35,739 nucleotides of DNA, from assembly GCA_017470525.1 (NCBI GenBank), contig JAFUYM010000042.1, positions 1 to 35,739 of the forward strand, given 5' to 3'. The stretch is from Bacteroidaceae bacterium. GTDB taxonomy: Bacteria; Bacteroidota; Bacteroidia; Bacteroidales; Bacteroidaceae. Both the position numbers and the translations under genes were made by a program. The first letter of the stretch is position 1; every line of letters begins with the position of its first letter. The notes under the pieces are model-generated. The model had not been told where the DNA came from, ran no database searches, and was given only the letters and a program-made list of their open reading frames with translations. Shown piece after piece: positions 13,334 through 33,491 of the stretch.

Positions 13334-13402
13334 CAACGTGTTTTTCATAGTATTAGATTTAAGGTTAACAAAGGTTCGGGTTGCAGCGGCAACCCATTTT
13401 TT
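13334..13402 (+). ncRNA. Candidate small RNA (~65 nt) with its own promoter and terminator
   Basis: A short transcript is predicted to start near 13339 and end at the hairpin GGGTTGC-agcg-GCAACCC (13378-13395) followed by ATTTTTTGTTTT. The body is AT-rich and contains ATTAGATTTAAGGTTAAC with no open frame. The T-tract lies only on the plus-strand side, so the hairpin is not built to terminate the helicase gene arriving from the right. The remaining part of this recJ/helicase gap (13012-13300) shows only AT-rich sequence. Confidence 0.5.
13378..13402 (+). terminator. Intrinsic terminator of the candidate small RNA
   Basis: Perfect 7-bp GC-rich stem with tetraloop at 13378-13395, then TTTTTT. 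It ends three bases before the 3' end of the opposing helicase gene. Confidence 0.7.
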
Positions 13403-13405
13403 GTT

Positions 13406-15967
13406 TTAAAGGGTCTCTTTCATGGGAAACAGCACGCTCCTGTCCATTGCCGTGTCCCAACCGCCAATCATCGTTCCTTTTCTTGTGTCGATGCCTGTAT
13501 AGCCAAGGCTGCTGTCTTCGTACCGTTTGAACTTATACACGGCATCGTTCATCAGTTCGCTGTTGAACACATTGAGACTCACCAACAACTCGAAGTCGTT
13601 GATACTCAACCCTGTCACCTTGCGGAACAAGTTGGGTTCCAAGTTGACAATCACATCCTTCAGCGAATATTCCCTAAAATCTGTCAAATACATGAACACA
13701 GGGATGCGTGTGGCAAACTTGATGAGTTTCTGCTGAATCTCCTTGCGTTTGCTCTTATACTCCTTCTCCGCCTCCGTCAGTTCCTTCTTCTGTTTCGGGG
13801 TCAGATTTTCTTCCTGTTCACGTTTCGTCTTCTTCACCTGTTCGCTCTTGTTGATGATGGTCTCAATATCCTGATTGAGCGAACGGAAACCCTCAATGTC
13901 CATCAGCGCCCGCATGGCTTCGGGCGAGTTCATCAAGCGGCTTAAGGTGGCATTATCCACGTTGACCAGCACCGCACTCTCCCATCGTCTTGCCAACAGC
14001 GTCGCCGTTGTGCCGCTCATTGCCATATCGAGAATGCCAGCCGCATCTATCTCCTTCATCGAACTGCCGTCGTATGCCAGCACCGGCAGGAAACGGATAA
14101 ACTCCTCCACTTTCTTCTCGGGGTTCGACTCATGCAGGTTCAGTTGACAACTGTACTCCTCCACCTGCCGCAACGCACGGTTAGGGGCGAAGTCGAACAC
14201 ATAGCAATAAGGCTTCAGAATCACCTCCTTGCCCCATTCGTCACGAGTCGTCCAAGGCGACTGCACACGAAACGCCGCCTGAAAGTAGGTCTCTGGCGAA
14301 CGGGCATTGCGAAGCATCAGAATGCCCGTCCAAGGTCGCACCGTCACACCCGTCGAGAGTTTGCCACACGAGAGCGTGATGGTCTTGCTCTGTCGCGGGT
14401 CACCTTCGGCGTTCATGGCTTGATACACTGGCAATACTGCCTCTGCACCCATACCTGCCTCATTGCCGGCAGCCACCACAATCTGATAGTCGTGATAAAA
14501 GCGGTTGATGGGCTTCTTCATCAGTCGTTCCATTGCCTTGCAAGCCGCCACCGATGGCAGAAACCAGTAGGTGTGTTGCAGATAACCATGCAGACGCACG
14601 TCGCTGAACGGCATGGGTGGTCGCTCCGTCCCCTGCTTCAGTTCGGTGATGATGTTCTCCTTGTAAGAACCCCGAATCAGGTCGATCCACTTCTGCACGT
14701 GCTCCTCATGCACAAAACCACGTTCGTCGGCACGGAAAAACTCATTCAGGTCGAACTCGTCAAACTCCCCTTGGTCAGCCACTTCCTTGATGCTGTCGGG
14801 CAGTTGATAAGTCATCATCACCATCTTGGGCAGCGACAGATAGGGGTTGTTCTCGCCTTTCCATGCCGCCTTCGCACTTTGCTCGTCCGAGTAGGTCCAG
14901 TTGTAGATTTGTTCTTCGATAAACTCGCCTGTGCTGATGGCACGGAACGGAGTGCCCGACAGGTAGAGATAGGCATGGGTGGTGAGCGGCATCAGTTCCT
15001 CGTCATACAGTTCGCGGCTGTCCATTTCCTTGCGGCTGTCGGCATCTTCCGCCATCAGTTCGCCCACCTCCACCGCACGAGCCAACTGCTCCACATCCTG
15101 CTTGCTGTAGAAGTCCTTGGCATGCTTGCCCCATGCCCCATAATGGTATTCGTCCAGCACGATGCAATCCCACTCCACCTCTTGAATCCACTCGTTCGTC
15201 GCCTTGATACCACCTGCCGCATTCCGTCCCAACACATCTTGGAAGGAGGCGAAGCACACAAAGGGTTTCCGCTCATTCACATAGTTAAATTGCGCATCCT
15301 CTTGTTTTTCACAGAACTGCCATCCCTCAAAGTCACGATGCGTGAGCAAATCCTCTCTCCATGCCGTCTTCACCGCAGGCTTGAACGTCAGCACCAGCAG
15401 CCGCTTCCACCCCATGCGGAGTGCCAACTGATAGGTGGTGAACGTCTTGCCGAAACGCATCTTGGCGTTCCACAGAAAATGAGGCACCAACTGAGGCGAC
15501 CCAGCCTTTCCCGTCCGCCCCGCCGCCAGTTCCTCTTGATAGAAGGACTCGAAATAGGCGGCAGTCTTTTCCACCGCCCGTTTCTGCTCGGGTCGCATGG
15601 CGAACGTCTCTGTACGTTCAACCATCGTTTCCCGTCCAGCCTTCACCGTCGCGATGGCTCGTTCCACATCCTTTACAGAGCAGCGAAACCATTCTCCTTC
15701 AGGGTTATAGAAACCTGCCCCACGCAGCACCTTATGCACCGCGTGGTCATCAAACGAAGTGCCATCCGCCTTCATGGCAGAACGCACCAGTTGAATCTTG
15801 TACTTCAGATGAGCAGTCTTGCATTGCTCCGCCACACGCTCCTCTGCGGTTCTCACCGTATAACCCACCTTCAGCAATCCTCTGTGCGAAGGCACCCCGG
15901 GCAGTTCGTAAGCATAAATGACAGGTTTGCCCTCAACCCTGCCCTGCAATAGTTCTGTTGTTGCCAT
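13406..15967 (-). CDS. GIY-YIG (T5orf172-like) nuclease fused to SF2 helicase, putative restriction/defence effector
   Basis: 853 residues. Residues ~14-110 resemble the T5orf172/MUG113 branch of GIY-YIG nucleases: VIYAYELP and LLKVGYT stand for the GIY and YIG elements, with an Arg in EERVAEQ and an EWFRC ending. A superfamily 2 helicase core follows: AKMRFGKTFTTYQLAL (Walker A), DCIVLDEYHYGAWG (DEYH box), YLYLSGTPFRAI (motif III) and ETYFQAAFRVQSP (motif VI), much as in type III Res subunits. The C-terminal ~250 residues include a charged segment (KKTKREQEENLTPKQKKEL) and are otherwise unassigned. It lies at the end of a minus-strand island with DNA methyltransferase genes, 49 bp after higA, so it is probably the DNA-cleaving, translocating subunit. 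Target and cofactor are unknown. Confidence 0.8.
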   Translation of the reverse strand: MATTELLQGRVEGKPVIYAYELPGVPSHRGLLKVGYTVRTAEERVAEQCKTAHLKYKIQLVRSAMKADGTSFDDHAVHKVLRGAGFYNPEGEWFRCSVKDVERAIATVKAGRETMVERTETFAMRPEQKRAVEKTAAYFESFYQEELAAGRTGKAGSPQLVPHFLWNAKMRFGKTFTTYQLALRMGWKRLLVLTFKPAVKTAWREDLLTHRDFEGWQFCEKQEDAQFNYVNERKPFVCFASFQDVLGRNAAGGIKATNEWIQEVEWDCIVLDEYHYGAWGKHAKDFYSKQDVEQLARAVEVGELMAEDADSRKEMDSRELYDEELMPLTTHAYLYLSGTPFRAISTGEFIEEQIYNWTYSDEQSAKAAWKGENNPYLSLPKMVMMTYQLPDSIKEVADQGEFDEFDLNEFFRADERGFVHEEHVQKWIDLIRGSYKENIITELKQGTERPPMPFSDVRLHGYLQHTYWFLPSVAACKAMERLMKKPINRFYHDYQIVVAAGNEAGMGAEAVLPVYQAMNAEGDPRQSKTITLSCGKLSTGVTVRPWTGILMLRNARSPETYFQAAFRVQSPWTTRDEWGKEVILKPYCYVFDFAPNRALRQVEEYSCQLNLHESNPEKKVEEFIRFLPVLAYDGSSMKEIDAAGILDMAMSGTTATLLARRWESAVLVNVDNATLSRLMNSPEAMRALMDIEGFRSLNQDIETIINKSEQVKKTKREQEENLTPKQKKELTEAEKEYKSKRKEIQQKLIKFATRIPVFMYLTDFREYSLKDVIVNLEPNLFRKVTGLSINDFELLVSLNVFNSELMNDAVYKFKRYEDSSLGYTGIDTRKGTMIGGWDTAMDRSVLFPMKETL

Positions 15968-16741: not shown

Positions 16742-16866
16742 CTGAGCCAGATGAGGCTCATGTTATTATCTCTCTAATCGTGTTCTCTCTCCACTCCCCG
16801 AAGCCCGCCAGGGCTTGCTTTCATCCCCACCTACACATCTTCTCTCATGCGGTGCTTCCAGCACCT
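16742..16866. repeat. Cluster of short perfect hairpins downstream of the methyltransferase gene
   Basis: GAGCC/GGCTC (16744-16759), AAGCCC/GGGCTT (16801-16816) and GGTGCT/AGCACC (16851-16865) follow one another. CACTCCCC (16792-16799) is complementary to GGGGAGTG (16872-16879), so an outer stem can enclose the last two hairpins. No open frame of note is present. It looks like an intergenic foldback repeat adjoining the 23-bp array. Confidence 0.65.
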
Positions 16867-16871
16867 CTATA

Positions 16872-16940
16872 GGGGAGTGAGTCTTACCCTTTTAGGGGAG
16901 AGAGTCTCACCCTTCCAAGGGTAAGAGTCTCTCCCCTTCA
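16872..16940. repeat. Array A: three 23-bp near-palindromic units
   Basis: Units occupy 16872-16894, 16895-16917 and 16918-16940, each centred on GAGTC. Half-sites pair better between units than within them: GGGGAGAGA (unit 2 left) with TCTCTCCCC (unit 3 right), 9/9, and AGGGTAAGA (unit 3 left) with TCTTACCCT (unit 1 right), 9/9. The array begins 15 bp after the stop codon of the minus-strand methyltransferase gene. Confidence 0.85.
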
Positions 16941-16955
16941 GCGATTCTTTCGTCA

Positions 16956-18464
16956 TCACTCCATAGGTCGTATCATACTCTCAATAAAAGCAATTTCATC
17001 ATCTGTTAAGCCATACTTCTTGTAAAGCATTTCATCTGTCCAGGGATGAGAAAAGTCTTGAAGAGGAACAACCCAAAACACAAACTTTGATAGGTTGATG
17101 GAACTCATCGTTACCAATAAAAGGAAGCGAACAAACTTGGTATAGAGATAACCAAGAAGATTGTCTGCACATTCTTTGTGTTTATAATTGCCAATAATGA
17201 AATAAGAATGTGTACAGACCTCTTTGGGACCAATTACACGTGTTGATGCTGTTAAAACACGATACATTCCATCTTTTCCAGGCTCGCCAGCATGTTCTGC
17301 ACTAACTTTCCCTATAATGATTTTATATGTATCTATGCAATCCATCCCTTTCAGAATCTCCTTACGATGAATATATGACTCCCCTTCACTAGAATGGAGA
17401 ATTAAAGCACCATCAAATGATCTTTCTTTTCCACGATAGTTGGTTGGCAAGCCGTATGGACATAAAGAAGAAACTATTTTCGACAGGCTTTCTTCATTCA
17501 GAGTCTTTGTTTTGTGTAGAATGCTAACAGCATTATTGTATCGAACAAGTACAGGAAACTCATTCAATGGTCTATTTAACACCTCTTCTTTCCCTGCTTT
17601 GATGTTAGTAAAACGGCAATCTCCCTTATGGTCTCTATCCCATAAAAAATAACAAACTCCACCACTAATACTATTTTGAGGAAAACACTCTTTTGCATTA
17701 GCATAATCTACAAGTACGCGAATTCGCCCATCATTCATCATCTTTTCTCTAAAGTCTTCAAGTTGCTTCATTCCTCCAGAGAACCATCGTGATGGAACAA
17801 TCATTGTTAAGAATCGAGGATTTAACTTCATTGCTTGACTAACGAATAGGTCATAAATAGGTTTTGCTTGTTTTCCTGCTCCACCTGTTTCCAACTGATA
17901 CGGAGGGTTTCCAATAATTACGTCAAATTTCATATTATTAAATAATGTGTGTGGGTTGTCTGTGTGAATAAACTGATAGGCATATTGTTCGGCTTGGTCA
18001 CCTCGGTCATAGACCTCTTGGGAGGCACCACAGTAGCGGCACTTGCCATTCGCCCATGTGTGGTGAAGCGGACGATAGAGGATGTTGCCGCTTTCACTCT
18101 TGAAACGGGTGACGCTATACTCGCTGCTGGCATCTTTGGAACAATAGACAGAACGGCGAGAAAGATGGGCGGTCAGTTCCGTGATGGCTATGCCGAACAC
18201 CTGACGGTGCAGGATGTGGTCGATGCGTTGGCGGCGGTCAGGCATCTGAGGTTCCAGCCCTCTGTCGAGCCGCTTCACAATCTCTCGCAGAAAGACACCC
18301 GACTTGGAGACAGGGTCGAGGAAGGTGGTGGTGGACGACGTGAACAGTTCCTGCGGCAGCATGTCAAGCACTTGGTTGGCAAGGGCAGGAGGCGTGAACA
18401 CCTCATCGTTGCTCAGATTGGCAAGGCAATTGAGCACATCTGGATTGTACGTGTCAGTTCTCAT
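16956..18464 (-). CDS. Eco57I-type N6-adenine DNA methyltransferase
   Basis: 502 residues. N-terminal EVFTPPALANQVLDMLP leads to SAM-binding motif I in the variant form FLDPVSKSGVFLREI, then VFGIAITELTAHLSRRSVYCS. A zinc-knuckle-like HTWANGKCRYCGAS follows, and then catalytic motif IV, DVIIGNPPYQ, near residue 182. FLTMIVPSRWFSGG continues the family pattern, and the C-terminal ~280 residues should contain the target-recognition domain. It adds a methyl group to adenine in a specific sequence. Base composition changes abruptly near 17945: sample rows are 28-38 % GC in the C-terminal half and 52-58 % in the N-terminal half, suggesting the recognition half was exchanged by recombination. It follows the small SAM-binding protein across a 208-bp foldback. 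Confidence 0.88.
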   Translation of the reverse strand: MRTDTYNPDVLNCLANLSNDEVFTPPALANQVLDMLPQELFTSSTTTFLDPVSKSGVFLREIVKRLDRGLEPQMPDRRQRIDHILHRQVFGIAITELTAHLSRRSVYCSKDASSEYSVTRFKSESGNILYRPLHHTWANGKCRYCGASQEVYDRGDQAEQYAYQFIHTDNPHTLFNNMKFDVIIGNPPYQLETGGAGKQAKPIYDLFVSQAMKLNPRFLTMIVPSRWFSGGMKQLEDFREKMMNDGRIRVLVDYANAKECFPQNSISGGVCYFLWDRDHKGDCRFTNIKAGKEEVLNRPLNEFPVLVRYNNAVSILHKTKTLNEESLSKIVSSLCPYGLPTNYRGKERSFDGALILHSSEGESYIHRKEILKGMDCIDTYKIIIGKVSAEHAGEPGKDGMYRVLTASTRVIGPKEVCTHSYFIIGNYKHKECADNLLGYLYTKFVRFLLLVTMSSINLSKFVFWVVPLQDFSHPWTDEMLYKKYGLTDDEIAFIESMIRPME

Positions 18465-25585: not shown

Positions 25586-26578
25586 ATGAAAGAAATCGTT
25601 TTGAGTGGCATTCGCCCTACGGGAAACCTCCACCTCGGAAACTATTATGGAGCAGTGCAGAACTTTGTGAAGATGCAGGAAGACTATAACTGCTACTACT
25701 TCATCGCCGACTGGCACTCGCTCACCACCCACCCCAAGCCCGAAGACATCCAGCAGTCGGCTCGCACCATCTTGGCGGAGTATCTGGCTTGCGGCATCGA
25801 CCCCGAAAAATCAACCATCTACATACAGAGTGACGTGCCCGAGACCATCGAGTTGTACCTCTATCTGAACATGAACTGCTATCTCGGCGAACTGGAGCGT
25901 GTGACGACCTTCAAGGAGAAGGCACGTAAGCAGCCCAACAACGTGAACGCCGGTTTGCTCACCTACCCCACGCTGATGGCAGCCGACATCTTGCAACACC
26001 GTGCCGCCAAGGTGCCCGTGGGCAAAGACCAGGAGCAGAACATGGAGATGGCACGCAAATGTGCCCGCCGCTTCAACAACATCTACGGCGTTGAGTTCTT
26101 CCCCGAGCCTCAGAACTTCTACTTTGGCGACCATGCCATCAAGATTCCGGGCCTCGACGGCAGTGGCAAAATGGGTAAGTCGGAAGGCAACTGCATCTAC
26201 CTCTACGAGGACGCCAAGAGCATCGAGAAGAAGGTGAAGAAGGCGGTGACCGATTCAGGCCCTACGGAGCCGAATCAGGAGAAGCCCGAAGTGATTCAGA
26301 ACCTTTTCACGCTGATGGAAATAGCCTCCAGCAAGGAGACCTACGACTACTTCAATGAGAAATGGAACGACATGACCATCCGCTACGGCGACCTGAAGAA
26401 GCAACTGGCTGAGGACATCGTGAACACGCTCGCCCCCATCCGCGAACGCATTCTTGAATATCAGAACAACCAGGAACTGCTCGACAAGGTAGCGAGACTC
26501 GGTGCAGAAAAGGCACGCGAGAGTGCGGCAGCCACGCTGAGGGAGGTCAGAAAGATAATCGGCTTCAGAGTGTACTAA
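25586..26578 (+). CDS. trpS: Tryptophan--tRNA ligase
   Basis: 330 residues, class I aminoacyl-tRNA synthetase. GIRPTGNLHLGNYYGAV carries the HIGH-type signature as HLGN, and GSGKMGKSEGNCIYL carries the KMSKS-type loop. ADWHSLTT and TLMAADILQHRA match the TrpRS tryptophan pocket. It charges tRNA-Trp with tryptophan. The length is standard, and it is followed by a strong terminator. No tryptophan-biosynthesis gene is nearby. Confidence 0.96.
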   Translation: MKEIVLSGIRPTGNLHLGNYYGAVQNFVKMQEDYNCYYFIADWHSLTTHPKPEDIQQSARTILAEYLACGIDPEKSTIYIQSDVPETIELYLYLNMNCYLGELERVTTFKEKARKQPNNVNAGLLTYPTLMAADILQHRAAKVPVGKDQEQNMEMARKCARRFNNIYGVEFFPEPQNFYFGDHAIKIPGLDGSGKMGKSEGNCIYLYEDAKSIEKKVKKAVTDSGPTEPNQEKPEVIQNLFTLMEIASSKETYDYFNEKWNDMTIRYGDLKKQLAEDIVNTLAPIRERILEYQNNQELLDKVARLGAEKARESAAATLREVRKIIGFRVY

Positions 26579-26595: not shown

Positions 26596-26646
26596 AAAGG
26601 AGAGAGAGGAAGTGCCCCAATCGGCATTTCCTCTCTCTTCTTTTTT
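26596..26646 (+). terminator. Intrinsic terminator of trpS
   Basis: GGAGAGAGAGGAAGTGCC (26599-26616) pairs with GGCATTTCCTCTCTCTTC (26623-26640), with G-T and minor mismatches, around a short loop, followed by TTTTTT. Confidence 0.88.
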
Positions 26647-26667
26647 AGGCATACGCTACACCCCAAA

Positions 26668-26736
26668 AGTGGTGTGAGTCACACCGCTTTGGTGGTCTGA
26701 GTCACACCACTTAAGCGGTCTGACTCAGACCACTTT
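26668..26736. repeat. Array B: three 23-bp near-palindromic units
   Basis: Units 26668-26690, 26691-26713 and 26714-26736, centred on GAGTC, GAGTC and GACTC. Each unit has one mismatch between its own 9-bp halves, but GTGGTGTGA (unit 1 left) matches TCACACCAC (unit 2 right) 9/9 and GTGGTCTGA (unit 2 left) matches TCAGACCAC (unit 3 right) 9/9. The array starts 24 bp after the stop codon of the minus-strand response-regulator gene. Confidence 0.88.
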
Positions 26737-26760
26737 TGAGGCTTCTGGCGAAGGGTGTTC

Positions 26761-27486
26761 TTAGTCCTTGCTGATGAGTTTGTAACCGATGCCGCGCACG
26801 TTGATGATGCGGATGTCGGGGTCACGGGAGAGTTTGTGGCGAAGTTTGGTGATGAAGACGTGGAGGCTGCGAGTGTTGAAGAAAGAGTCGTCGCCCCAAA
26901 GTTCGAGGAGGATGTCGCGGATGGGCACCACGTCACCTCGGTGCAGACAGAGGCGTTTCAGGATTTCAGCCTCTCGATGGGAAAGCGAGAAGACCTGCGG
27001 GGTGAAGTCAGCATCGGAGAAGAGCAGTTGTTGGGTGAGGGTGTTGAGTTGGTAGTTGCCGACGACAAACAGGTGCTGAGCATCTTTGGGGACAGGGGAT
27101 TGTGTGATGCAAGCACGTCCGACGAGGGCTTTGAGGCGAATCATCAGTTCCTGCATGCCAAAGGGTTTGCGAAGGTAGTCGTTGGCTCCGAGTTCAAAAC
27201 CATGCACCACGTCTTCGGTGGCAGTACGTGCGGTGAGGAAGAGGACGGGAATGTGTGGGTCGTTCTGACGAAGACGTTTCACCATGTCGAAACCATCCAT
27301 GCGGGGCATCATCACGTCGGCGACAAGGATGTCGGGATGGAGTGTGTGGTACATCCGCAAGCCCTCTTCGCCGTCGTGAGCAATGTAGATGGTGAAGCCT
27401 TGTTGGTCGAGCGTGTCTTTGATGATGAAGGCGAGGGTGGCTTCATCCTCAACCAAGAGTACCGTTATGTTTTCGTTAGGAGTCAT
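26761..27486 (-). CDS. OmpR/PhoB-family response regulator
   Basis: 241 residues from MTPNENITVLLVEDE. The receiver domain has the acidic pair Glu13/Asp14, the phospho-acceptor Asp57 in ILVADVMMPRMDG, and LTARTATED and LRKPFG with the conserved Thr and Lys. The C-terminal winged helix (~145-238) shows LSHREAEILKRL, VVPIRDILLELWG, RSLHVFITKLRHKL and IINVRGIGYKL. It lies five bases after the histidine kinase gene and should be its partner. Likely targets include the divergent receptor gene, whose upstream region has direct repeats. Confidence 0.93.
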   Translation of the reverse strand: MTPNENITVLLVEDEATLAFIIKDTLDQQGFTIYIAHDGEEGLRMYHTLHPDILVADVMMPRMDGFDMVKRLRQNDPHIPVLFLTARTATEDVVHGFELGANDYLRKPFGMQELMIRLKALVGRACITQSPVPKDAQHLFVVGNYQLNTLTQQLLFSDADFTPQVFSLSHREAEILKRLCLHRGDVVPIRDILLELWGDDSFFNTRSLHVFITKLRHKLSRDPDIRIINVRGIGYKLISKD

Positions 27487-27491
27487 AGGAA

Positions 27492-29147
27492 TTATAGGAA
27501 AGAGATGAGCATGCCGCCCATGAGCCATGCCAGTAGGTTGAGCGTGTGGGCATTAGGTTTGGGGAAATGAAGGATGAACGTGCTGCCCTCCCCTGGCTTA
27601 CTATCGACAGAAACAGAGCCTCGGTGCAACCGCATCATGGTCGCCACGTAATAGAGCCCGAGTCCATGCCCCTTCACGTTGTGGAGGTTGCCGTTGGGCA
27701 CACGGTAGAACTTCTCAAAGATGTGGCGTTGCTGTTCGGAGGTGATGCCGATGCCACGGTCGCTGACAGAGATGAACGTCGTCCCGTCGCGGGTGATGCC
27801 GCCACAGACGTTGATGTCCGCCTCCGCCGCCGAATATTTCACCGCATTATCCAGCAAATTGCCCAGCATCTGCAAGAGCAAGGTGCGGTCGGCTGTCAGC
27901 GTCAGGTCGTCGGGCTGAATGGCGGTGGCGATGTGGAGAGGTTTTCCGTTCTTCATCTTCTGAGTCTCCACAGCAGCAGCCACAACCTCTTTCACATTCA
28001 GTACTTCCAGTTTCAGCACAAAGTTTTTCTGCCGTTCAGCACTCACCGACAGAATCTGCTCCACCATGTCGCCCAGGCGTTGCAGTTGCTCCTGAGAGAC
28101 GCGAAGGTACTTTTCCCGCGTCGCCGCATCCTCTCCCTGATGGAAGTGAAGCAGGGCATCATTGGCAGCGTATGCCACAGCGATGGGGGTCTTCAGTTCG
28201 TGGGTGATGTTGTGGGTGAAGTCGCTCTTCATCTCGTCGAGTGTCTTCTGTTTCAGCAGCGTGTGGATGAGATACCAGAACGTGAAAGCGAGAACAATCA
28301 ACGTGAGGAGGGAGGTGGCAATGATGCCTTTCAGCGACTTCAACACACTCACTCTGACAGGCTCCATCCACAGGCGATAGAGGTCGTGCTGCGACGAAGT
28401 GTAGTGGTAATCGTAATGCACGGCTTTCTCGGTCGGCTGATAGTGAGGCGTGGTAATCATGTTAAGCGTATCTATCCCAAGTGTGTCCGTCTCATCGACC
28501 GCATTCACATGGAAATGAAATTGCTCCAGCCGATGTGATGTGTCGATGTGATGCTCTTGCAGCCTCAACGTCAGGAGGCTGTCGAACACCGCCACATCAG
28601 GTTCGCTCAACAGGTCGATGCCGTTGTGGATGCCCTGCTGCATCATCTGCGTCAAGTCGCGGACAGACTTCTGGTCGTCCACCACGGCGGAGAAAAGCCC
28701 ATTTCCACCACTGACCAATGCCTTGTTTTTCTCGGTTTCTTCGGTGTCGTATGAATGCACGTCCACCCGCATGTGCCGCTTGCCAGCCACGCTGTCACGC
28801 CGAATGGTGATGGTGTCCGTCAGTTCCTCGTCCTTCATGATGATGGCATCGTAACCCTTCTGCCGGACGGTGGTGACAGAGCCAGCATACACCATCTGGT
28901 TGTTCACGTCCATCTTGTAGCCCGTGGCATAACTGACCTCGCCATGCGTTTGTGTCTTTTGCGAGAGTTTGGCGATACGAAGCACCATCTCGTTATAATC
29001 CGAGATGCGAAGTGCCTCCGCAATGCTCTCCTCCATCTCCTGCTTGCGGGTCTCGTAGAGATTGTGGAGGCAGTAAAGTTGGAAGAGGAAGATGGCTGCA
29101 AGGGCGGTGCAGACAAGAATGGTGATGGTTTTGAGTGGCAGTTTCAT
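27492..29147 (-). CDS. Membrane sensor histidine kinase
   Basis: 551 residues from MKLPLKTITILV. TM1 (~8-28) and TM2 (~285-310, GIIATSLLTLIVLAFTFWYL) bracket a periplasmic sensor domain of about 250 residues without a recognised fold. The kinase core has the H box FTHNITHELKTPIAVAYA, N box MLGNLLDNAVKYS, G1 VSDRGIGIT, F box IFEKFYR and G2 GHGLGLYYV. After the usual end of the ATPase domain there is an extra hydrophobic tail, LNLLAWLMGGMLISFL, which is unusual. It is transcribed divergently from an outer-membrane receptor gene it may regulate. Confidence 0.93.
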   Translation of the reverse strand: MKLPLKTITILVCTALAAIFLFQLYCLHNLYETRKQEMEESIAEALRISDYNEMVLRIAKLSQKTQTHGEVSYATGYKMDVNNQMVYAGSVTTVRQKGYDAIIMKDEELTDTITIRRDSVAGKRHMRVDVHSYDTEETEKNKALVSGGNGLFSAVVDDQKSVRDLTQMMQQGIHNGIDLLSEPDVAVFDSLLTLRLQEHHIDTSHRLEQFHFHVNAVDETDTLGIDTLNMITTPHYQPTEKAVHYDYHYTSSQHDLYRLWMEPVRVSVLKSLKGIIATSLLTLIVLAFTFWYLIHTLLKQKTLDEMKSDFTHNITHELKTPIAVAYAANDALLHFHQGEDAATREKYLRVSQEQLQRLGDMVEQILSVSAERQKNFVLKLEVLNVKEVVAAAVETQKMKNGKPLHIATAIQPDDLTLTADRTLLLQMLGNLLDNAVKYSAAEADINVCGGITRDGTTFISVSDRGIGITSEQQRHIFEKFYRVPNGNLHNVKGHGLGLYYVATMMRLHRGSVSVDSKPGEGSTFILHFPKPNAHTLNLLAWLMGGMLISFL

Positions 29148-31440: not shown

Positions 31441-32346
31441 TTATTCATAAGTGATGTAGGGTCTTAGTTTTTTCAGTTCCTCTGTGGTGAAGATACCTGT
31501 GGAGATGAGCGTTTCTTCATCTTCCACTTTTCCGTAGAGGCGGATGTATTGCAACAGAGCCTTGGTTTGTTCGTAGGTGATGTAGGGGTGGCTGTTCAAT
31601 TGTTGGAATGAGGCTTGGTTGAGGTTGATTTGTTGGATAGAAGGAGAAGGAGAGATGGTGAACCACTCCAGCAGTTCGGGAGAAACGATTTTTATTTCAG
31701 TCAGTTGCCCTACAGCATAGAAACCACCCAAGCGAGTGCGATAACGAACAATCGCCTCGCTTATTTTTTCTCCTATGCCGGGGACGCGTCGCAACAGAGC
31801 CGTGTCTGCCTCGTTCACATCCACCTTTGTCAACGATTGAAACTTTTTGGGCTCATTATCATGGGGCACATCCTTCCGTTCCATCCGCTTCTCTTTCTGC
31901 ACATAGCGAGGTCTATCCACTCGCTGATAACCTTTCACCACCTGCACGTATGGAGCCACCCTCTCCACATCCTCCTCTGTCCATCCATACGTCTTCCCCA
32001 TGTCCTCCGCCGAGCGAAACACCTTTCCTGCCGCACGGTAATGCAGAAAATTCTTCACCTTCCATGCCTTGATGCCAAAGCCGACAAGTGTGAGAGAATC
32101 CACCGTATTGGGGTCGAAAGACCCTCTCTGTCCTTCGGACATCTTCCCCGTAAAGGGGAGACCATCTGGCTTGCTTCCAACACCCTGCATAGCCTCCTTC
32201 CCCAGAGAGTGGGAAGGCTGGAGAGGGAGTCTATCCACCACCAACAGCACCCCCACACAAAACACAGCGATACACCCCAACGCCACAATCGCACGTCGGT
32301 CGCTCTTCTGAAAATAGAAAAAGTCCTTGAACGGATTGGGTATCAT
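31441..32346 (-). CDS. Membrane-anchored ComEA-like helix-hairpin-helix protein
   Basis: 301 residues from MIPNPFKDFFYF; this ATG overlaps the glycerate kinase stop (ATGA), which decides the start. One membrane segment (~20-38, AIVALGCIAVFCVGVLLVV) is followed by a linker (~40-77), then FDPNTVDSLTLVGFG, and HhH units including VDVNEADTALLRRVPGIGEKISEAIVRYR, LTEIKIVSPELL and INLNQASFQQLNSHPYITYEQTKALLQYI. These resemble competence DNA-binding protein ComEA, extended with additional hairpins as is usual in Bacteroidetes. It may bind DNA in the periplasm. The linker is encoded by a cloverleaf-like cluster of inverted repeats. Confidence 0.85.
   Translation of the reverse strand: MIPNPFKDFFYFQKSDRRAIVALGCIAVFCVGVLLVVDRLPLQPSHSLGKEAMQGVGSKPDGLPFTGKMSEGQRGSFDPNTVDSLTLVGFGIKAWKVKNFLHYRAAGKVFRSAEDMGKTYGWTEEDVERVAPYVQVVKGYQRVDRPRYVQKEKRMERKDVPHDNEPKKFQSLTKVDVNEADTALLRRVPGIGEKISEAIVRYRTRLGGFYAVGQLTEIKIVSPELLEWFTISPSPSIQQINLNQASFQQLNSHPYITYEQTKALLQYIRLYGKVEDEETLISTGIFTTEELKKLRPYITYE
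32120..32231. repeat. Cloverleaf-like palindrome cluster inside the HhH gene
   Basis: An outer stem CCCTCTC (32122-32128) / GAGAGGG (32221-32227) encloses three hairpins: TGTCC/GGACA (32129-32141), TCCCC/GGGGA (32145-32159) and CCTTCCC/GGGAAGG (32196-32217). It encodes the linker after the membrane segment. Such words look like intergenic repeats rather than protein code. Confidence 0.6.
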
Positions 32347-33491
32347 CGCAGTTCCTCCATCAAATGTTGGCAAGTTTTCTTGATGTTCTCGGCAGCCACA
32401 GCGGGTTGCATCAGCGTGGAAACAGGTCGGTCGTCGCCCTCATTGATGCAGCAGAGACGGTCAAAGCCGCATGTCCGCAATGCCGCTTCATCCTTGATTT
32501 GTCCCGACATGAGAAAGGTCTTCACCCCCTCTTTCTTAGCCCGTTTCAGCACACCAAAAGGAACCTTCCCGTGAGTCGTCTGCTCGTCCGAACACCCTTC
32601 GCCCGTGATGACGACATCAGCCCCTTGCAGCACCTCGTCGAACCTGCAAGCATCCAACACCACATCGATGCCCGACTTCAGTTCCGCTCCCAGATAGGTC
32701 AACAGCGCATAGCCCAATCCTCCTGCGGCTCCTGTGCCGGGACGGAAAGCATCCTCTCTCGTGGCAATGCCCATCTCCTCCGTCGCCATCGCGAAAGCCC
32801 TCAACCGCCTGTCCAGCATCTCCACCTGCTCGGGTGTGGCTCCCTTCTGAGGGGCAAACACGTATGCCGCTCCCGACTCTCCGAAGAGAGGGTTGTTGAC
32901 ATCACACGCAACGGTCAAAACCGACGTCGTCGACATCGGTTGACCGACATCGTCGACATCGGTCGACCGACATCGACGACGTCGGTCAAGAGGTTGTGGA
33001 AGCGCCTTTTTAGGGGCTTCGTCTGTGAGCCACGAGTGACCACGCAATGCCTCCAGCATTCCCATGCCCGCATCGCACGTTGCCGACCCTCCGATGCCGA
33101 GCACGATATGCCGCACACCCCTCTCCATCGCATCCGCCATCATCTCGCCCAACCCACGGGTGGTCGTCTCCATCGGGTTCCGCTTCTCCACGGGCACCAG
33201 CGTCAAGCCACAGGCACTTGCCATTTCCATATATGCCGTTTCACCATCGTGACTGATGGCATACTCAGCCTCCACCTCCTCCATCAGCGGACCATGCACA
33301 CGCACACTGACAGGGCTTGCCTTCCCCATCGCCACAAAGCACTCCACCAGTCCCTCGCCGCCATCACTCAATGGCACACTGACCACCTCGGCATCGGGGC
33401 ACACCGACAGCACCCCCTCGGCAGCCGCTGCACAAGCATCTGCTGCCGATAGGCTACCTTTGAAAGAATCAAATGCAAGAATGATTTTCAT
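32343..33491 (-). CDS. Glycerate kinase (GlxK/GarK family) carrying a 69-bp palindrome array
   Basis: 382 residues. Family motifs are clear: MKIILAFDSFKGSLSA, VPLSDGGEGL, GLGEMMADAM, VACDVNNPLFGESGAAYVFAPQKGAT, PGTGAAGGLGYAL and VITGEGCSDEQTTHGKVPFGV. It phosphorylates glycerate, feeding glycolysis. Two oddities: the usual GGSATND loop reads GGSATCDAG, and the ~23 residues before LTVACDV (DRRRRCR...MSTTSV) are encoded by three 23-bp palindromic units in place of the usual IDxSxLDPRL-type stretch. The frame is intact and the total length normal, so it is probably translated; activity needs testing. It overlaps both neighbours by four bases (ATGA). Confidence 0.88.
   Translation of the reverse strand: MKIILAFDSFKGSLSAADACAAAAEGVLSVCPDAEVVSVPLSDGGEGLVECFVAMGKASPVSVRVHGPLMEEVEAEYAISHDGETAYMEMASACGLTLVPVEKRNPMETTTRGLGEMMADAMERGVRHIVLGIGGSATCDAGMGMLEALRGHSWLTDEAPKKALPQPLDRRRRCRSTDVDDVGQPMSTTSVLTVACDVNNPLFGESGAAYVFAPQKGATPEQVEMLDRRLRAFAMATEEMGIATREDAFRPGTGAAGGLGYALLTYLGAELKSGIDVVLDACRFDEVLQGADVVITGEGCSDEQTTHGKVPFGVLKRAKKEGVKTFLMSGQIKDEAALRTCGFDRLCCINEGDDRPVSTLMQPAVAAENIKKTCQHLMEELR
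32920..32988. repeat. Array C: three 23-bp near-palindromic units within the glycerate kinase gene
   Basis: Units 32920-32942, 32943-32965 and 32966-32988. Left halves are ACCGACGTCG, ACCGACATCG and ACCGACATCG; right halves are CGACATCGGT, CGACATCGGT and CGACGTCGGT. Unit 1 left pairs with unit 3 right 10/10; own-unit pairing is 9, 8 and 9 of 10. Because 23 is not a multiple of three, each unit is read in a different frame, but the 69-bp whole keeps the gene in frame. Confidence 0.9.

Follow-up and report, generated by a model that had tools for sequence, protein, structure and literature searches.

Array B of a Prevotella-like genome as a probable member of a clade-specific family of dispersed triple palindromes whose cores differ at shared addresses

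Porphyromonas gingivalis belongs to the same order as the organism whose DNA is analyzed here. REP-like palindromes are an old puzzle, both in how they spread and in whether they are functional. The passages of PMC3733652 and PMC3686654 drawn on here describe REP, BIME, and REPIN sequences as short imperfect palindromes whose copies number from tens to hundreds, located mostly between unidirectional and convergent genes and sometimes in genes, with units of opposite orientation combined into larger hairpins and in some cases placed within longer palindromes. In these same passages CGTC repeats, reported in Bacteroidetes, are given as having no known dedicated transposase (PMC3733652, PMC3686654), and RPE repeats are mentioned as well (PMC3733652). 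A second close system is the BrickBuilt MITE of P. gingivalis, built, according to the relevant part of PMC4596501, from spacerless tandem 23-nt units. The present locus, array B, resembles both, and patterns detected around it are consistent with its being, as we consider probable, a copy of a clade-specific REP/MITE-like palindromic repeat that is tolerated and whose cores are copied in concert.

The window is the whole 35,739-nt stretch of DNA analyzed, contained in a 3.24-Mb Prevotella-like genome referred to as the source genome; relatives are labeled G0xx, CAMW, or WFMB, and stretches fetched for analysis Lxxx. The core of array B occupies 26669..26733 (65 bp, no strand assigned) and was delimited from the sequence, TRF, and a geometry detector as three 9-1-9 palindromic units at 23-bp spacing. 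Unit 1 is GTGGTGTGAGTCACACCGC (26669..26687), unit 2 GTGGTCTGAGTCACACCAC (26692..26710), and unit 3 GCGGTCTGACTCAGACCAC (26715..26733), with 4-bp linkers, TTTG then TTAA, a left arm at 26652..26668 (TACGCTACACCCCAAAA), and a right arm at 26734..26750 (TTTTGAGGCTTCTGGCG). Divided into halves, the units are GTGGTGTGA-G-TCACACCGC, GTGGTCTGA-G-TCACACCAC, and GCGGTCTGA-C-TCAGACCAC, and the change of centre base from G in units 1 and 2 to C in unit 3 may be read as opposite polarity of unit 3. TRF returned a period of 23 and 3.0 copies, confirming the three 23-bp units claimed in an earlier, sequence-only reading of this DNA, and direct reading of the halves bore out both its single internal mismatch per unit (8/9 paired in each) and its pairings between units (9/9 for L1-R2 and L2-R3, 8/9 for L3-R1). 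The array is positioned between convergent genes. Upstream is a gene at 25586..26578 (+) that we take from its protein to be trpS, used as anchor for the orthologous array B locus, followed 3′ by a terminator-like hairpin and T-run seen by eye at 26600..26646 (+), ahead of the array, with similar hairpins in G007 and G020. On the other side a response regulator (26761..27528, −) has its stop codon facing the array and starting 24 bp past 26736, again as had been claimed. The predicted fold of array B is −55.5 kcal/mol on the plus strand and −58.3 on the minus strand with shuffle means near −27, giving z-scores of −7.7 and −10.1.

Two other arrays in the window are related to array B more closely than had been supposed. 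Array A with its arms spans 16855..16953 (core 16872-16936) and array C 32904..33002 (core 32921-32985), the latter within a glycerate kinase gene. The three had been described as unrelated in sequence, which does not hold for A and B. There are two half-site frames, class I G.GG...GA in A and B and class II.CGA..T.G in C and D (the class labels and types A-D were coined in this analysis), and on the basis of the common class I frame A and B are cousins; a single two-unit pattern drawn up from both matches each exactly, with 0 matches expected by chance. Array C is of a different class yet lies in similar arms. These arms are common to the A, B, and C types, with all three window arrays between versions of one inverted arm reading outward in the source genome about TTTWGAGGTNNTGAAAGC, and 39 elements align gap-free over 99 columns. 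Nor can it be maintained that simple duplication hardly explains the arrays, since copies of each type are scattered elsewhere through the source genome and duplication therefore plays a part. The proposal of a class not defined by sequence is partly borne out, in that the geometry is common and cores at a single address may differ from one sister species to another; against it are the shared arms, the two half-site frames, and the small number of dialects per genome, with A, B, and C coexisting in the source genome. An Eco57I-type restriction-modification methylase gene (16956-18464) directly adjoins array A.

Used as queries against the source genome, the three window arrays returned 13, 28, and 59 strand-wise DNA matches, and 47 stretches were fetched around such matches. 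The covariance model R1, made from 39 elements all built on 23-bp units, located at least 76 sites at E<=1 (147 strand-matches) and at least 72 at E<=0.001 when 150 of 908 candidates were scored; sites examined were mostly intergenic and often near stop codons, and with at least 72 sites the family consists of dispersed extragenic palindromes, as REPs do. A sequence-independent geometry detector, which the sequence-only reading had suggested comparing with shuffled sequence, gave 36 period-23 hits in 513 kb fetched around known copies (32 distinct, after overlaps at L037, L042, and L046 were dropped), 0-6 hits at periods 20-22 and 24-28 over the same 513 kb, and none in a single Markov shuffle; window array A escaped it. 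A triad at 23-bp spacing was present at 41/53 source-genome sites examined, a proportion that leans toward three because the loci were picked for resembling the window arrays, all of them three-unit elements, in DNA sequence. L038 and L039, near-identical contig stretches, perhaps represent one locus counted twice. The other sites had two units (7), one unit (1), four units (1), or outer recognized units 48 bp apart (3). A unit number fixed at three is thus right for the prevailing triads but not for the elements with one, two, or four units, and a period fixed at 23 is right as a strong preference but not for copies at 24 bp, found in class I of genome G013 and in the G007 copy of array B. 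Free variation of the period was rejected, as period 23 dominates the scan, though 24 bp exists beside it. The first detector also found, at about 750 in L057, a different tandem palindrome (GTAGCGTAATTACGCTAC type), likewise of period 23.

The family appears restricted taxonomically. R1 matches, with per-genome counts that are minimum values limited to candidates scored, were present in 20/37 genomes of the genus and in 0/24 genomes of other families, and the geometry detector run over 400 kb of one non-carrier genome detected no element of this kind, its hits at periods 21-25 being AT-rich or unlike. In the carrier G013, 321 kb sampled without bias contained seven triads, three of class II with 23-bp spacing and four of class I with 24-bp spacing (L342 about 15388, L349 6479, L353 424, and L356 7578), so that the 23-bp period does not hold everywhere; the same sample had unlike AT-rich repeats of period 21. 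Among 60 distinct elements in G020 (78 raw, in a species tally that was not de-duplicated), 55 were class I. The exact two-unit class I pattern occurred in at least five named Bacteroidales MAGs among the matches listed (80 of 107), two of the five being stated as from rumen or reticulum. A viral origin was rejected, the exact two-unit pattern having no match in viral contigs. At about 18788 in L356 of G013 there is an unlike tandem palindrome (GTAACA..TGTTAC), its period also 23.

As a kind, dispersed palindromic repeats are already known. What appears new here is that three units recur at 23 or 24 bp, that a RAYT partner is apparently lacking, and that the dialect can change while the address is shared, and our search of the open-access literature, with subscription journals and preprints outside it, found no description of this element. 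Compared with REPs, the unit is a 9-1-9 palindrome, a GTAG/GTGG or CGTC foot was not recognized by eye in the arm consensus, units usually come in threes at 23-24 bp, the dialect of a core may change while its address stays, and no RAYT association was seen. It could be proposed that the elements are mobilized by a REP-associated tyrosine transposase, given that they are palindromic, dispersed, and in genome-specific classes, as REPs are in the pertinent passages of PMC3686654, and that the source genome has one distant HUH-type Y1 protein (L072 1027-2007, the sole PF01797 match found). But that protein reaches 36.6 where REP_Tyr_transpos has a cut-off of 80, no triad was found within 14 kb around its gene (L084), and PF01797 (Y1/RAYT) is present in 8/20 carriers and 8/17 non-carriers (Fisher p = 0.75), a genome profile that disfavors RAYT mobilization and leaves this explanation highly improbable.

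BrickBuilt is closer in period, 23 in both, and the likeness, so far as the relevant part of PMC4596501 describes it, extends to flanking arms, intergenic position, predicted long stem-loops, and lack of a transposase remnant. By a simple measure of palindromicity the brick scores 7/9, equal to the A and C units at 7, with B and D at 8. However, the brick consensus AGAYCATARTATCCTCTCRTRTG is by eye unlike the units here, and the same part of PMC4596501 gives 0 to at least 18 bricks and ends of the IS5-family ISPg type. Membership in BrickBuilt was rejected on sequence, since by eye neither the units nor the arms here match the brick consensus and its IS5-type ends.

Ordinary MITE transposition, in which an IS1182-type transposase would move the whole element via terminal repeats, could account for a subset of class II copies, the 13 source-genome sites with at least one GAGGGTGTGTCAAAWTA end, 11 with both ends within one mismatch (grouped by hand), particularly as an IS1182 element in G017 (L361 2583-4432; NF033551, 462.9 bits) has identical 16-bp termini. 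This explanation is nevertheless unlikely. Most elements in the arm comparison, array B among them, are without IS1182-type ends, near-identical cores sit in unlike arms, and 24/24 source-genome end matches lie in short sites, with no IS having these ends at one mismatch; moreover, the same palindrome, of GAGGGTGTGTC..CACCCTC type, also stands alone as a terminator-like hairpin in related genomes (L364, L365, L366, and L368, near 2000). Inspection by eye revealed no target-site duplication beside the terminal repeats. A class II triad is positioned about 160 bp beside the G017 IS1182 transposon (L361).

Two other readings of the arms were considered and rejected. The first was an autonomous element sharing the arms: the arm-pattern search of the source genome gave 49 matches, with 26 for the reversed control, comprising arms of known elements and scattered matches, and no gene-flanking arm pair stood out on reading. 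The second was that the arms are pre-existing host hairpins; arm-only hairpins numbered 0 in the source genome, 1 in G020, 0 in G007, 1 in CAMW, and 0 in WFMB, with 1 in the non-carrier G027 and 0-1 in shuffles, in a scan that was not very sensitive and missed a core-less candidate recognized by eye at about 10137 in L083. The G020 counterpart of that candidate has different intergenic sequence, so the L083 position cannot be taken as a demonstrated empty site.

Comparison of orthologous loci suggests that addresses can outlast the sequences they hold. At trpS, G020 has a B core 59/65 identical to that of the source genome and G007 has another core at 24-bp spacing (counted from sequence). The array A locus has an A core in the source genome and B-type cores in G020 and G007, with source and G020 cores matching at 37/65 despite gene flanks 89.4 and 90.5% identical. 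Cores differ between sister species at L034, L045, and L060 as well, L060 having two units in the source genome and three in G007; the L038 and CAMW cores match at 47/65, and the L026 core is nearly identical between orthologs (63/65). Arm identity was 20/34 and 18/34 at dialect-changed loci and 28/34 and 34/34 at same-dialect loci, and because arms differ too where the dialect has changed, exchange of the core only is not the whole story and replacement can extend into the arms. Where both flanks of a relative's element could be aligned, 13/13 rows, at 8 distinct sites, fell on a source-genome element, in an ortholog sample that is small and in which, at L192/L284 and L286, the span on one side was long; by one-flank synteny, with hits de-duplicated by 400-bp bins, 29 of 41 anchors coincided, 10 were without a source-genome element, and 2 were at edges. 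Both samples are biased in that loci were fetched for holding elements.

The same pattern is seen inside a coding sequence. Array C lies in frame in the glycerate kinase gene (32343..33491, −; PF02595, residues 3-380), and the G007 gene has a D-dialect triad at that position, with the two cores matching at 47/65 and four columns changed in all three units. The glycerate kinase of G008, a genome without R1 matches, contains no element and at this place has 33 residues fewer. A segment of comparable length is present at the array C position in solved glycerate kinases, so the short form in G008 may itself be derived. Rickettsia palindromic elements also occur in frame in genes and are longer and single-hairpin; array C is like them in being a palindromic repeat in frame inside a coding gene and differs in being a triad of 23-bp units.

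Folding was compared across 39 elements. Nested pairing (h1-h6, h2-h5, h3-h4) had a mean of 22.6/27 and was best or tied in 29/39, the cyclic L1-R2 scheme a mean of 22.2/27 and best or tied in 23/39, and self-hairpin pairing a mean of 21.0/27. The best general fold is the long nested hairpin, by a small margin over the cyclic scheme, which had been put forward as the shared pattern and proves close but not general. For the nested fold, 338 cells were changed on both sides compared with 172 in shuffles, covariation was 0.455 compared with 0.214 shuffled and 0.082-0.150 slid, and three of five measures exceeded all 500 shuffles, with scores inflated by relatedness of the elements. There was no excess in pairs with change on both sides (37 vs 39.2 in shuffles) or in further pair types (96 vs 98.2), and a structure of separate hairpins scored almost the same (0.448), so covariation does not prove the nested fold.

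In the 55 class I elements of G020, half-site variation was almost all at positions 2 and 6, and position 6 of the central unit was paired in 5% where 51% was expected, indicating that units are directional. Polarity was G-C-G in 59 and C-G-C in 57 among 165 units, and by centre base most triads began with a G unit and ended with a C unit (GGC 24 and GCC 17 of 55). In the family as a whole, as outer units usually face each other, with the middle either way, a single strand can form one long hairpin. An operator model, in which the 19-bp palindromes are sites for a putative dimeric nucleoid or regulatory protein, three sites are needed at 23-24 bp (about 2.2 helical turns), and dialect follows a change in specificity, would explain the regular spacing and number, the unit polarity, and the genome-wide dialect. 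It does not readily explain the coexistence of dialects A, B, and C in the source genome or the recurrence of whole-core haplotypes including linkers, which binding alone does not require, and the in-frame glycerate kinase copy better suits a mobile repeat. We regard this model as quite unlikely.

Selection of the elements as long RNA hairpins, acting as bidirectional terminators or 3′-end stabilizers with compensatory changes in a drifting sequence, would fit the strong folds on both strands and the covariation by three of five measures. It is further consistent with over-representation in convergent gaps (38/123 elements from all sampled genomes vs 25/163 source-stretch gaps of >=100 bp, element-holding gaps included; p = 0.002), and with the T4 runs of G020, present 16-34 nt beyond the core in 52% of arms compared with 5-14% at greater distance; these fit a role as bidirectional terminator for some copies. 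The T4 run is, however, weaker in the source genome (27% vs 12-19%) and absent in WFMB (6% vs 0-28%), and array B itself has none alongside, trpS having its own terminator-like hairpin. Independent drift would give locus-specific sequence, yet cores are common to several loci; copies between divergent genes exist (24/123), and position 6 of the central unit is mismatched in nearly all G020 elements. For these reasons an RNA function seems an unlikely overall explanation. The 3′ preference was moderate, with 41/61 tandem cases nearer the upstream stop (p = 0.0099), and 14/153 sampled elements overlapped a called gene, with 16 more of the 153 dropped for missing or distant neighbors and genes taken from a home-made ORF caller.

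The evidence bearing most directly on copying comes from G020, where the 65-bp core of 20/55 class I loci recurs unchanged at another locus. The expectation was 0.5 by column shuffle, and the strictest (nested block) shuffle averaged 8.2 over 300 draws and never exceeded 15. In 122 pairs with cores no more than one base apart, arm likeness was 0.506, compared with 0.510 in other pairs. In the reading we consider probable, of a tolerated palindromic repeat copied in concert, an element would consist of inverted arms of about 17-27 bp around usually three 19-bp imperfect palindromes, with linkers of 4 bp, or 5 bp in the 24-bp lineages, an anatomy directly visible in the copies aligned. Addresses would be able to persist across sister species while the core is overwritten by the prevailing dialect of each genome, as is seen at part of the loci, and whole 65-bp cores would recur at different loci within one genome, as they do in G020. 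The substrate for copying may be a long hairpin or cruciform formed from single-stranded DNA, and the core of one element, sometimes with arms, would be copied into another, possibly by ectopic gene conversion after hairpin cleavage or by a hairpin-specific transposase or recombinase. For the host the repeat would be mostly tolerated, with some copies possibly serving as bidirectional 3′-end hairpins or terminators. The arms probably lack the length and likeness that ordinary RecA-dependent conversion of one dialect by another would need, which counts against this reading.

A stronger form is put forward only tentatively, as rather doubtful: that these are conserved addresses with exchangeable cores, at which degenerate inverted arms bound a three-unit core that is rewritten genome-wide from time to time by a dedicated hairpin-copying activity. 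If this were true, sequence would be a lineage dialect, and address and three-unit geometry (23 or 24 bp) would be what is inherited. The idea of dialects has a precedent in the REP classes that differ at orthologous RAYT loci in pseudomonads and stenotrophomonads, as given in passages of PMC3686654. In a family with no RAYT link seen, and with concerted change that reaches into a coding gene, copying can itself be put to the test, through strain comparison and a search for a hairpin-handling enzyme.

An Rfam search of the window and three loci gave no match at gathering score at the arrays. Its only match, away from them at 13338-13407 in the window, was to FopS, a Bacteroidetes family of paralogous sRNAs, with 73.8 bits against a gathering score of 56.
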